Source of the DNA: Rivularia sp. T60_A2020_040
GTDB lineage: Bacteria; Cyanobacteriota; Cyanobacteriia; Cyanobacteriales; Nostocaceae
DNA length: 50,916 bases
Assembly: GCA_015272215.1 (NCBI GenBank)
Contig: JACYMD010000072.1
Location: forward strand, 1 to 50,916
Reading direction: 5' to 3'
The notes beneath the pieces were generated by a model that saw only the letters and a program-made list of their open reading frames with translations, made no database searches and was not told the origin of the DNA. Position numbers and translations under genes: made by a program. Positions 14,524 through 36,902 of the stretch are shown here, in pieces; within the stretch, counting starts at the first letter, position 1; every line of letters starts with the position of its first letter.

Positions 14524-14673
14524 TTATTGAGGTAAAGGATGGAAAAAAGTCCCGTATTGCAATCCAGGAAACAAGTAATTCAATGTAACGAAAATTACAA
14601 ACAAAATAATCACTGCTAAGGTAGCAACAACGGGAACACTAGAAAGATATTTTAAGAAATAACGTGACTCCAT
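14524..14673 (-). CDS. psaJ2: Photosystem I subunit IX, far-red paralogue
   Basis: A 49-residue single-helix protein, MESRYFLKYLSSVPVVATLA at its N-terminus, matching PsaJ: the F-L-x-Y-L-S-S-x-P-V-V motif, one membrane helix and the C-terminal L-F-P-G/F-F-H-P segment. PsaJ lies at the edge of photosystem I beside PsaF and helps bind pigments. AAGGAG lies 9 bases before the ATG. It follows psaF2 on the same strand, 151 bases apart with an ATTACCA array between, the same order as the normal psaFJ operon, so it is taken as the far-red copy. It is the last gene of the leftward arm. Confidence 0.9.
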   Translation of the reverse strand: MESRYFLKYLSSVPVVATLAVIILFVIFVTLNYLFPGLQYGTFFHPLPQ

Positions 14674-14824: not shown

Positions 14825-15307
14825 CTAACGAATTGAAATTGGAATTTCATCATCTTTAGCAACTAATTCGCCACTTAAAAACTCTTTGATTGCTAATATC
14901 GGCCACATTAAAGCCTTGATCATACAACTTAGGAAGAGTCTGAGATCAATAAACAATTCCTTTTCTTCCCCTGCACCTTCTTTTCTAATTGCTACTAAGT
15001 AAGAACGTCCACTCCAACCTATCCAACCTGCAATGTATAAAAACATCGTAATCGGAGCCATTACGTCAAATGCCAGGTTTAAACGATCAAGAACTAAATG
15101 TGGTAAACCATCATCACCACAGAGTAATCGCGAATAAGCCTGAAATGGCTTGGTAGTGTAATAATTATCAGGTGCATTTTGCATCCGTTCTACAAATGCA
15201 GGAGATTCTTTACAAGGTACCAGTGTCGTGTTCTCTGCGAATGCAACAGGAACAATATTCATCCACAGAAAACTTGTGAGTAGTAATGCGAAAAATATTT
15301 TTTTCAT
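14825..15307 (-). CDS. psaF2: Photosystem I subunit III, far-red paralogue
   Basis: A protein of 160 residues from ATG 15307. MKKIFFALLLTSFLWMNIVP followed by VAFA and ENTTLVPC is a signal peptide with likely cleavage after AFA, as expected for a lumenal-exposed subunit. The mature part has the PsaF landmarks: two cysteines (VPCKESPAF and RLLCGDDGLPHLVLD), the FLYIAGWIGWSGRSYL membrane segment and the IDLRLFLSCM...WP segment. PsaF sits at the photosystem I periphery and contacts PsaJ and chlorophylls. The frame is open to a TTG at 15340, but the signal peptide fixes the later start. Position between psbB2 and psaJ2 marks it as the far-red copy. Confidence 0.93.
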   Translation of the reverse strand: MKKIFFALLLTSFLWMNIVPVAFAENTTLVPCKESPAFVERMQNAPDNYYTTKPFQAYSRLLCGDDGLPHLVLDRLNLAFDVMAPITMFLYIAGWIGWSGRSYLVAIRKEGAGEEKELFIDLRLFLSCMIKALMWPILAIKEFLSGELVAKDDEIPISIR

Positions 15308-15368
15308 GATTTTATCTTTTGTTGTTAGTACTTGCGCCAAAATTCATCATGCTTAACGCAGAATCGTT

Positions 15369-15397
15369 GTAAAGACGTAGCAATGATACGTCTCTAC
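15369..15397. repeat. Dispersed inverted repeat (GTAGAGACGT family)
   Basis: An imperfect palindrome with arms GTAAAGACGTA and TACGTCTCTAC lies between psbB2 and psaF2. Related copies are at 23782-23812 and 50623-50650. Confidence 0.65.
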
Positions 15398-15413
15398 ATT
15401 TCAGGAATCTCAA

Positions 15414-16943
15414 TTAAACAGGTTGCTTTTTGCGGGTAGTCAAATCACCAACTTTCTGGAAAACACCGAATTCAACTTGTTCTTCTAAGTCAGGATCAAT
15501 ACCAGCAAAGACATCTCGATATATTGTGCGGGAACCATGCCAAATATGTCCAAAGAACCAGAGTAAACCCCAAACTGTATGAGCAAAAGCGAACCATCCA
15601 CGGGTACTTGTGCGGAATATGCCATCGGAATTCAGAGTTGCACTGTCAAATTCAAAAATTTCACCCAGTTGAGCGCGACGAGCAAATGGTTTAACATCAA
15701 TTGGATCTGTAAATGTTTGACCGTCGAGTTGACCACCGTAAAAACTGACAGTTGTACCAGCTTGTTCAAAGCTTAATTTTGATTCAGCTCGTCGGAAAGG
15801 TATATCTGCACGGACAACATCATCTTTGTCAGTCAAAACTACTGGGAAAGTTTCAAAGAAGTTGGGCATCCGTCTTACCGTCAATTCCCGACCTTCTTTG
15901 TCTTGAAACACTGGATGACCAGACCAAGCTTGAGCAATACCATCACCTTTATTCATCGCACCGACGCGGAATAAACCACCTTTAGCCGGACTATTGCCAA
16001 CATAGTCGTAGAAAGCTAACTTATCTGGAATATTCGACCAAGCTTGCGATCGCGTTTCACCTCCAGCCAAATTGGTTTGTACTCGCCGATTAATCTCATT
16101 TTGGAAATAACCGCTGTCCCATTGATAACGAGTCGGACCAAACAATTCAATCGGAGTTGTGGCGCTACCATACCACATTGTTCCAGAAACAATAAAAGCT
16201 GCAAAAAAGAATGTTGCTAAGGCACTTGCCAGAACAGTTTCAATATTACCCATTCTTAAAGCCCTATAGAGCACTTCTGGAGGGCGAAAAGCTATATGGA
16301 AAATACCACCGATAATACCAACAATCCCCGCCGCAATGTGATGAGCTACAACACCACCAGGATTAAAAGGATTAAAGCCCTCCGCTCCCCACACAGGAGC
16401 CACACCCTGGACATGACCAGTTAATCCGTAGGGGTCAGAAACCCACATACCCGGACCAAATACACCTGTAAGGTGAAAAGCACCAAAACCAAAACAAAGC
16501 AGACCTGCAAGTAACAAATGAATCCCGAATATTCTTGGTAAATCGAGGACTGGTTGATTATTCTTACGGTCTTGAAATAAATCCAAATCCCAATAAACCC
16601 AGTGCCAACAAGCAGCTAGAAATAATAAACCTGACAAAATTATATGAGCTGCGGCGACACTTTCAAAAGTCCACAAACTAAATCCTGTAACAGGTTCACC
16701 CGTGAGACTCCAACCACCCCAAGATTCCGTAACACCCAATCGAGCCATGAAAGGCAATACATACATCCCCTGTCGCCACATCGGGTTGAAAACTGGGTCG
16801 CTGGGGTTAAACAGAGCAAGTTCGTATAAAACCATTGACCCTGCCCATCCCGCTGTCAAGGCTGTATGCATCAGATGCACAGCAATTAGTCTTCCTGGGT
16901 CATTCAAAACTACTGTGTGGACACGATACCAAGGTAATCCCAT
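15414..16943 (-). CDS. psbB2: Photosystem II CP47, far-red paralogue
   Basis: A 509-residue core antenna protein, full length for PsbB. The start [20 protein letters not shown] is the family signature; six membrane helices carry the chlorophyll-binding His pairs ([29 protein letters not shown]), and the large lumenal loop lies between about 260 and 450. CP47 binds antenna chlorophylls and docks on D2. AGGA lies about 10 bases upstream of the ATG. Neighbouring far-red D2, CP43 and D1 copies show this is the FaRLiP paralogue, expected to bind some chlorophyll f. No psbH lies beside it; instead a small PsaJ-like frame precedes it. Confidence 0.96.
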
Positions 16944-17047: not shown

Positions 17048-17215
17048 TTAGAAAAAAAGTTGTAGATATGTGCCTGATATCGAATCAGGAAAAAATCTGT
17101 TTAAAAACATCACAGTAACTGAAAAAAAGAAGATAAACACAGGAACAATGATGTATTCAACCAAAAAATCCTGTATCCCGACTACGAGATTATTTTTACG
17201 AAATGCCATCAGCAT
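17048..17215 (-). CDS. Small single-helix protein resembling PsaJ
   Basis: A 55-residue frame in the gap between psbC2 and psbB2, on their strand. It reads MLMAFRKNNLVVGIQDFLVE at the start, then YIIVPVFIFFFSVTVMF and LNRFFPDS, ending GTYLQLFF. It has one membrane helix (about 20-38), and its F-L-x-x-x-x-x-x-P-V followed by N-R-F-F-P-D matches the PsaJ pattern (N-R-F-Y-P-D in ordinary PsaJ), though the helix is about four residues shorter. AAGGAGG lies 12 bases before the ATG, a slightly long spacing; an internal ATG at 17209 is further away. psbH2 might have been expected beside psbB2, but the protein lacks the PsbH signature. Coding status is supported by the motif, the Shine-Dalgarno and the location. 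Confidence 0.6.
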   Translation of the reverse strand: MLMAFRKNNLVVGIQDFLVEYIIVPVFIFFFSVTVMFLNRFFPDSISGTYLQLFF

Positions 17216-17357
17216 ATAAGACTAAAGCCTCCTTGATTAATAAGTATTTACCAGCTACCACTAATATCTCCTAACTGAATTAACATGATTTCGATGGGCT
17301 TCTGATTACTAAATTCCGATCAAAATAAGCTGTAAAACTGGAATTTTTTGTGGGGTA

Positions 17358-17422
17358 AGAAGTCGGGTTTTTATTACTTTTATAAGCCTGCAATTGATAT
17401 TTATCTTAAAAACCCGACTTCT
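17358..17422. repeat. 15-bp inverted repeat after psbC2
   Basis: Perfect arms AGAAGTCGGGTTTTT (17358-17372) and AAAAACCCGACTTCT (17408-17422) lie just beyond the psbC2 stop. The same arms recur between psaA2 and psaB2 at 36836-36902, so this is a dispersed element that may also act as a 3'-end hairpin. Confidence 0.75.
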
Positions 17423-17446: not shown

Positions 17447-18850
17447 TTAATCCAATGGTTTCATCGATAAAACTGGCTCATCTTCACGTTCGATACCTCT
17501 TTCAAAACCCGCAGCAGCCGCTCTTGCACGACCTGCGTGCCAAAGATGACCAACTAGAAACAGTAATGCAAAAATAAAGTGAGCAGAAGCTAGCCAAGTT
17601 CGAGGTCCGACAAAATTAAAGGAATTAACTTCCGTTGCTAAACCACCAACTGAATTCAAAGAACCGATGGGAGAATGGGTCATGTATTCAGCAGCCCGAC
17701 GTTTTTGCCAAGGTTGAATATCATTCTTTAGCTTGTCAATATCTAATCCATTAACTCCCCGCAACGGCTCTAACCAAGGTGCTTTTACATCCCAAAACCG
17801 CATTGTTTCAGCCCCAAAGATGATTTCTCCTGTTGGCGATCGCTGTAAATATTTACCTAAACCAGTGGGACCTTGAGATGTAGAAATATTCGCTCCTAAA
17901 CTTTGGTCACGGACTACAAAGTTCAGTACTTGAGCATTGGCAGCTTCTGCTACTGTCGGTCCATAAAACTCACTAGGATAGGCAGTATTGTTAAACCAAA
18001 TAAACATCGCAGCAATAAAAGCCTGTCCGGCAACATTACCTAAACTTTGAGAAAGGTAGGCTTCACCAGACCAGATAAAGATTTTGTGAGTCCATTTAAA
18101 AGGTTTCGTTACAATGTGCCAAATACCGCCAAGTATTAGCAATCCACCTACCCAAATATGACCACCAACTAAATCTTCTAAATTATCAACGCTAACAATA
18201 TTACCGGAGCCTCCCGTAATATTACTGAAAACGTAACCAAAGATGATTCTTGGGTCGAGAGTGGGATTTGTCACAAGCCGCACATCACCGCCTCCTGGGA
18301 CCCAAGTATCATATAAACCACCCCAAAACATTGCTTTACCGACAAGTAAGTAAGCGGCTATCCCAAGGGCAATCAAGTGATATCCCAGAATACTAGTAAC
18401 TTTGTCTTTATCAGTCCAATCAAAATTGAAGAAACCCGCTAGCTTTTGGGGTCCTCTAATTGAGTGATAAATGCCACCAAAGCCTAAAACAGCAGAACCA
18501 ATTAAATGTGTTACGGCAATGGCAAAAAATGGGAAAGTATTGATTATTTCACCGCCTGCTCCTACACCGATGCCGAGAGTTGCAATGTGAGGCATGAGAA
18601 TTAAGCCCTGTTCGTACATCGGCTTTTCTGGTATGTAGTGAGCAACTTCAAACAACAGCATTGCTCCAGCCCAGAAGGCAATCACTCCTGCATGAGCTAC
18701 GTGAGCGCCCAAGAAGCGACCGGATAAGTTGATAAAACGGGCGTTCCCAGCCCACCATGCATATCCAGTAGATGCTTGGTCGCGACCTTCTCTTTCTTGA
18801 GAGCTAACATTGGTTGTAGTAGCTGAACTTTCAAATGGTGTTTCCATCAT
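17447..18850 (-). CDS. psbC2: Photosystem II CP43, far-red paralogue
   Basis: A 467-residue inner antenna protein. The segment [20 protein letters not shown], the helix His residues ([30 protein letters not shown]) and the lumenal GAETMRFWD motif are present; the Glu and Arg of that motif correspond to CP43 Glu354 and Arg357, which touch the Mn cluster, so the water-splitting interface is kept. Two adjacent ATG codons begin the frame. Unlike the usual psbD-psbC arrangement, in which the two genes overlap, here 118 bases separate psbD3 from psbC2, filled with heptamer repeats. It lies between D2 and CP47 genes of the far-red set. Confidence 0.96.
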
Positions 18851-36835: not shown

Positions 36836-36902
36836 AGAAGTCGGGTTTTGATGAATGTTATAAGAGTGTGACCGATACTTGTATTGTAAAAACCCGACTT
36901 CT
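36836..36902. repeat. 14-bp inverted repeat between psaA2 and psaB2
   Basis: Arms AGAAGTCGGGTTTT (36836-36849) and AAAACCCGACTTCT (36889-36902), the same arms as after psbC2 at 17358-17422. It is a dispersed element in the psaA2-psaB2 gap. Confidence 0.75.

Follow-up and report, generated by a model that had tools for sequence, protein, structure and literature searches.

The window, a 50,916-nt stretch of Rivularia sp. T60_A2020_040 DNA, carries a FaRLiP cluster in which psbD3, psbC2, psbB2, psaF2 and psaJ2 all run in the same direction. The 503-nt gap separating psbC2 from psbB2 holds a short open reading frame of that same orientation (herein referred to as the ORF or psaJ3, a name of our own; table 1). 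The first-pass annotation had proposed a 55-codon frame preceded by AAGGAGG, and both are there: the start ATG occupies 17215-17213, the stop codon 17050-17048, and the plus strand at 17048-17215 is interrupted by stops in the same frame, leaving it open on the minus strand only. Measured to the in-frame ATG of codon 3, the AAGGAGG stands at the long spacing of 18 nt. The encoded protein reads MLMAFRKNNLVVGIQDFLVEYIIVPVFIFFFSVTVMFLNRFFPDSISGTYLQLFF, and no other small frame in the gap has a long hydrophobic stretch. Its length is unremarkable (the surrounding 20 kb has 155 frames of at least 30 aa, among them several of 50-65 aa that lie within real genes), and we take the ORF as real because of its conservation, not its length. 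Between psbC2 and the ORF lies a perfect inverted repeat; the same hairpin, AAGTCGGGTTTTTA, is found downstream of psbC2 (17358-17422) and between psaA2 and psaB2 (36838-36900), with 4 matches against 0.07 expected.

Table 1. The ORF and neighbouring features of the window, in positions of the whole stretch.
Feature	Position	Strand	Remark
ORF (psaJ3)	17048..17215	-	55 aa, predicted single-helix membrane protein; relatives in 19 of 217 family genomes
AAGGAGG	17228..17234	-	Shine-Dalgarno-like; 12 nt 5' of the first ATG
Hydrophobic stretch	17096..17164	-	ORF codons 18-40; putative transmembrane part of the PsaJ-like helix, limits set by eye
PDSISGTYL	17063..17089	-	ORF codons 43-51, C-terminal; aligned with the PsaJ2 far-red-specific insertion PGLQYGTFF, with Ser in the place of PsaJ2 Tyr40
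Inverted repeat AGAAGTCGGGTTTTTA	17358..17422	.	perfect, 16 bp, 33-nt spacer; between psbC2 and the ORF
psbC2	17447..18850	-	directly upstream of the ORF
psbB2	15414..16943	-	directly downstream of the ORF; 78% identity to the other psbB of the same genome
psaF2	14825..15340	-	presumably psaF2 (name from the context in the first-pass annotation); adjoins psaJ2; directly beside the ORF in three other genomes
psaJ2	14524..14673	-	known far-red PsaJ, 49 aa; Pfam PSI_PsaJ E 2.3e-9

The AlphaFold2 model of the ORF product consists of a helix (residues 2-41), a loop and a short helix (49-54), with a mean pLDDT of 77.7; the predicted architecture is that of PsaJ, one transmembrane helix followed by a short tail. 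By analogy with PsaJ, the N-terminus is most likely stromal and the tail lumenal.

A first search, covering 100 genomes with the window's own among them, found strong matches in three congeners and weaker matches in a further four genera; by tblastn, six of these seven hold the ORF between psbC2 and psbB2 and the seventh (G029) beside psaF2-psaJ2. Hits of that search from L009 on were treated as chance, except one in G027 (E 0.48), which proved real. Using an alignment as query, we found relatives in 19 of the 217 genomes of the family (Nostocaceae) at E<=3e-9, nine further family genomes at E 0.0098-0.041 being treated as chance. All 17 of the 217 genomes that encode psbC2 (E<=1e-240) carry the ORF, as do 2 of the 200 that do not; these two, the Nostoc assemblies NMS9 (G550) and JL34 (G548), are FaRLiP remnants devoid of both psbB2 and psbC2, and were found through the ORF itself, so that the frequency of ORF loss in remnants is not given by them. 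A separate scan of named genomes yielded 12 ORF loci. Carriers include Plectonema cf. radiosum LEGE 06105, Calothrix parasitica NIES-267, Mastigocoleus testarum BC008, Calothrix PCC 7716, F. thermalis PCC 7521, F. muscicola PCC 7414, C. fritschii PCC 6912 and two Nostoc assemblies.

Beyond the family, 25 genomes among 388 of the class were counted as FaRLiP-bearing, using a psbC2 score cut that we placed just above canonical psbC. None of these 25 has a strong ORF match; the best of the 25 weak matches listed has E 7e-4, and ten of them, fetched as loci, proved to be psaJ2 (nine) or psaJ1 (one). The gene therefore seems, from these searches, confined to the family, that is, to heterocystous cyanobacteria as we name them from the organisms listed. 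One match on a viral contig (L031) was rejected, being a stretch within a 154-aa frame with no other FaRLiP gene beside it. For the comparisons below, the frameshifted G054 copy and the second of two equal-scoring copies in G511 (an assembly with 38% contamination) were dropped from the ORF alignment, and L179 (a broken psaJ2), L211 (a PsaJ1) and identical rows from the PsaJ2 set; PsaJ1 and PsaJ2 loci missed by the search pattern fall outside the counts.

Across 15 pairs of ORF copies of our choosing, 14 of them non-identical, 13 have dN/dS values (Nei-Gojobori) of 0.04-0.33; the one exceptional pair, at 0.85, rests on 4 changes. For five pairs on separate branches, the comparison of synonymous with non-synonymous change gives a Fisher p of 5.7e-7 (on rounded counts), and differences at codon positions 1/2/3 amount to 8/6/24. 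Judged by these substitutions, the ORF is a real gene under purifying selection. The first-pass annotation had made its reading depend on conservation of the frame in related clusters and on a coding signature; both are present, and the same gap in other FaRLiP clusters of the family does hold the ORF.

We compared the ORF family with the PsaJ and PsbH models that the first-pass annotation had suggested, and found similarity to PsaJ2 and none to PsbH2. With hhalign, the profile of 18 ORF members matches that of 23 PsaJ2 sequences over 50 gapless columns with a score of 27.6 (E 3.2e-5 as a single comparison, probability 46%), bearing out the earlier PsaJ-like reading. The controls PsbH2, the 48-aa FaRLiP protein, the CxxC protein and PsaI2 (one row) score 1.1-4.3 (E 0.44-0.90), and the unlike pair PsaJ2-PsbH2 of the same control run, at 9.5 (E 0.064), stays far below 27.6. 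Shuffling the PsaJ2 columns gave a best score of 10.9 in 150 trials, or 20.3 in 150 when segments were kept, none of which equals the observed value. In the PDB, a single ORF sequence retrieved with phmmer five chains, all PsaJ (E 0.13-0.68); the 18-member profile retrieved nine, of which eight are PsaJ, led by 7s3d_J (E 0.0019) and 6pnj_J (E 0.012), both presumably far-red PsaJ2, with the unrelated peptide 4b19_A in third place (E 0.042). Pfam PSI_PsaJ matches 8 of the 18 ORF members (best E 0.0014); on whole genomes, PF01701 picks up 5 of the 19 ORFs, none of which reaches the cut-off (best 18.2 vs 22.4 bits), and the window's own ORF protein has no Pfam or NCBIfam match. On these scores the ORF is a PsaJ homologue and not, lying below the cut-off, a Pfam member of PsaJ.

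One short helix offers little on which to base homology. The gene tree (48 columns, long branches) groups the ORF copies in one clade (100/99) and PsaJ1 in another (100/100) and leaves the placement of the ORF relative to PsaJ2 without resolution; the link to PsaJ2 rests on the profile scores and on a shared insertion. Each score by itself is moderate; combined with the insertion, they leave homology to PsaJ2 as the best account of the sequences.

In published structures, residues 39-43 of PsaJ2 are described as a far-red-specific insertion (PMC10694217) in which Tyr40 donates a hydrogen bond to chlorophyll f B30 (PMC10694217, PMC7002129), and the pigments that PsaJ1 binds through Thr22, Glu28 and His39 are lost in PsaJ2 (PMC10694217, PMC7002129), Glu28 and His39 being chlorophyll ligands of PsaJ1 (PMC7002129). 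The insertion aligns without gaps with the ORF family, which has Gly (16/18) and Thr (18/18) at +5/+6 after Pro, followed by Tyr (18/18). The position of Tyr40, a Tyr in 23/23 PsaJ2, is occupied in the ORF family by Ser (16/18) or Gln (2/18), and at the places of the pigment ligands Glu and His each occur in 0/18, residue pairings that are based on alignment rather than on structure. Going by this alignment, the ORF product looks like a PsaJ2 derivative stripped of its known pigment contacts. The NRFFPD pattern singled out by the first-pass annotation is present in the window's ORF and occurs in only 3 of the 18 aligned sequences, each from the window's genus; the consensus of the 18-member alignment is, with exceptions, KxFFPxSxSGTYL.

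The first-pass annotation regarded a PSI-type subunit amid PSII genes as unexpected, and such is the arrangement in 16 of the 19 genomes, where the ORF lies between psbC2 and psbB2. It is not that of the other three (G029, G550 and G548), in which the cluster is split or decayed and the ORF lies beside psaF2-psaJ2. One contig of G029 carries psaI2-L2-B2-A2, chlF, rfp genes, the ORF, psaF2 and psaJ2, and another contig psbA3, apc genes, psbD3, psbC2 and psbB2, with psbC2 and psbB2 adjacent and no ORF between them. In NMS9 and JL34 the sole psbB is canonical (75-76%), as is the sole full-length psbC (71%). On the NMS9 contig (L177, L178; G550 contig 53), psaJ2-psaF2-ORF is followed by broken apc fragments, then by a gene of chlF type (at 64% to the window's chlF and 61% to its psbA3, without the C-terminal 13 residues of PsbA3), rfpB-A-C and psaA2-B2-L2-I2; that of JL34 (L179; G548 contig 182) begins just before the ORF and continues with psaF2 and a psaJ2 broken by an internal stop. 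Canonical psbD is absent from G550 and incomplete in G548, which implies gaps in both assemblies; the adjacency of ORF and psaF2 without psbB2 was read directly in both. An intact 48-codon frame where both flanking psb genes are lost suggests selection for use with PSI. With the ORF beside psaF2-psaJ2 in these three genomes, its usual place amid PSII genes does not oblige it to act in PSII. As psaJ2 is present in all 19 ORF-bearing genomes (the G548 copy with its internal stop), the ORF does not replace it.

Several further peculiarities of these genomes were observed. The JL34 psaJ2 (L179:1080-1228) is split by a frameshift or stop, and the ORF adjoining it is intact and identical to the NMS9 copy. 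The psbC2 of G007 (L100:9639-11035) is split into two overlapping frames by a frameshift or an assembly error. Some genomes encode a further PsaJ paralogue, above the Pfam cut-off and away from the FaRLiP cluster (G499:C1:5108401, G498:C65:2760, G054:C7:959042, G480:C97:83685, G481:C6:355185, G477:C269:10775 and G497:C1:5491640). The psbC2-psbB2 gap of other FaRLiP lineages (L045-L050, L052, L053 and L055) holds a frame of ~100 aa or longer with one hydrophobic stretch and the conserved part IPCxxCxFFTxxxxLKCTVHP...AIxCPDY, which is possibly metal-binding; this CxxC one-helix protein was rejected as a relative of the ORF (E 0.44).

We hypothesize that the ORF encodes, as is probable on balance, a PsaJ2-derived, PSI-associated protein (PsaJ3) of far-red cells in heterocystous cyanobacteria. 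The computations support a real, selected gene, its homology to PsaJ2 and its retention together with PSI genes; that PsaJ3 is present in PSI, where it would sit and how it would affect B30 are what we infer as most likely from them. Within the heterocystous cyanobacteria, psaJ3 would most likely derive from a duplicated psaJ2 or from a duplicated ancestor common to the far-red PsaJ proteins, and it is kept in all 17 psbC2-bearing genomes searched in the family. The protein would most likely sit in far-red PSI next to PsaF2 and, in a fraction of the complexes or while they are being assembled, would either fill the PsaJ pocket or contend for it; in this form the hydrogen bond to the B30 chlorophyll f would be missing, or would be remade by the invariant Tyr at position 43. 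A bolder version, which we advance only tentatively, is that there are two exchangeable far-red PsaJ subunits whose swap would switch the far-red tuning or the assembly state of PSI: PsaJ2 would hold chlorophyll f in B30 via Tyr40, PsaJ3 would present the same loop with the bond removed or replaced through Tyr43, and the solved complexes would contain PsaJ3 in sub-stoichiometric amounts that were left unmodelled. In the far-red PSI structures 6pnj and 7lx0, which we take to be from F. thermalis PCC 7521, a strain with the ORF gene, no chain besides PsaJ belongs to the ORF family at E<=10. PsaJ3 is thus no firm stoichiometric subunit of that preparation, which argues for a sub-stoichiometric, transient or easily lost protein rather than a second full-occupancy subunit.

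The same data bear on several other readings. PsaJ3 could be an assembly or exchange factor: during the replacement of white-light by far-red PSI it would hold the PsaJ site next to PsaF2, to be displaced by PsaJ2 once the trimer is mature. This is a special case of the PSI-associated protein that we favour, so that the odds of the two overlap, and by itself we judge it possible though rather less than an even bet. It would account for the presence of psaJ2 in all 19 genomes, for the solved F. thermalis complex having no chain of the ORF family and for the missing Tyr40, Glu and His of the ORF; however, absence from the structure can also reflect loss in preparation or low occupancy. A PsaJ-derived helix recruited instead to far-red PSII, or to a contact between PSI and PSII, would fit the operon position of the ORF within psbD3-psbC2-psbB2 in 16 of 19 copies, and an unassigned single helix of ~40% occupancy is described in the monomeric apo-FRL-PSII of Synechococcus 7335 and as absent from the dimer. 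We nevertheless think recruitment to PSII improbable: NMS9 and JL34 retain the ORF without psbB2 and psbC2, G029 keeps it with the PSI genes and not between its adjacent psbC2 and psbB2, and the Synechococcus 7335 helix is unlikely to be the ORF product given that the 25 FaRLiP genomes searched outside the family have no strong match.

That the ORF is a decaying, functionless duplicate of psaJ2 could explain the frameshift in one of its 19 copies (G054, possibly a dead gene, possibly a mis-assembly), the four codons fewer in the helix of three of the four members of the window's genus relative to the other 15 aligned, and a faster change in that genus (89-91% identity to G001 and G007, vs about 99% for psbB2 and psbC2). 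Decay is nonetheless very hard to reconcile with an ORF in every one of 17 psbC2-bearing genomes, with dN/dS well below 1 in separate pairs and with an ORF left intact in NMS9, which has lost the adjoining PSII genes and has a broken apc gene. The highly diverged PsbH2 that the first-pass annotation offered as its alternative draws on the absence of psbH2 from the window's 15340-15414 junction and from the homologous junctions of its congeners, G027, G029 and G036 (7 of the 9 family genomes tested), and one paper calls psbH2 optional. A further candidate is the 48-residue small subunit which, in section 3.7 of PMC9325196, is proposed as a piece of a two-helix PsbH2. Neither has profile similarity to the ORF family (E 0.88 for PsbH2, 0.59 for the 48-residue subunit), and PF00737, run on the window's own genome at E<=10, has no match at the ORF position. 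Where found, psbH2 lies after psbB2, and F. thermalis, F. muscicola, C. fritschii and G054 carry it together with the ORF; a 47-aa frame resembling the 48-residue subunit stands beside psbH2 in G015 and G054, both of which also have the ORF. This co-occurrence refutes identity with PsbH2, and we give either candidate next to no chance.

Searches on psaJ3 and on FaRLiP gene content returned, in the text extracts they yielded, no paper naming the protein or the gene, and PsaJ3 is apparently without a name in that literature. Cluster-figure legends of PMC4390838 and PMC4658448 mention 'hypothetical' genes, in whose figures the ORF may be drawn without a name. In a C. thermalis thylakoid proteome, PsaI2 and PsaJ2 went undetected for lack of suitable tryptic peptides (PMC8827656), which illustrates how a small protein such as PsaJ3 can escape detection. 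Far-red PSI is described as exchanging six subunits (PMC7002129, PMC10694217); PsaJ3, if our reading is true, would be a seventh, and the inventory of a much-studied complex would have to be revised. Its very small size, its escape from Pfam and its place amid PSII genes are the probable reasons why it was overlooked. It would also offer a test of how Tyr40 of PsaJ2 tunes chlorophyll f at B30, and the two Nostoc remnants without psbB2 and psbC2 are a natural test of which far-red components are of use by themselves.

Among known systems, PsaJ2 is the closest counterpart: the ORF product shares its length, its single helix (the helix block being gapless in 15/18 members) and its far-red-specific C-terminal insertion with Gly-Thr-(Tyr/Phe). 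The ORF nevertheless forms its own clade, is not beside psaF2 in 16 of 19 genomes, and differs by the Tyr at position 43 (18/18) and by Lys for Asn before FFP (14/18). Canonical PsaJ1 (PSI subunit IX, PF01701) likewise has a single helix with an FFP motif near its lumenal end, but lacks the insertion (its tail is DLLFHPL) and carries Glu (15/16) and His (16/16), neither of which the ORF family has at these places. PsbH2 and the 48-residue subunit of PMC9325196 are, like the ORF product, small one-helix proteins of FaRLiP clusters, whereas both are encoded downstream of psbB2, coexist with the ORF and share no sequence similarity with it. Finally, the NMS9 and JL34 remnants mirror the cluster of Chroococcidiopsis CCMEE 010, which is described as uniquely reduced, with four of six PSI paralogues lost and the PSII genes kept: in the Nostoc remnants it is the opposite part of the cluster that has been lost.
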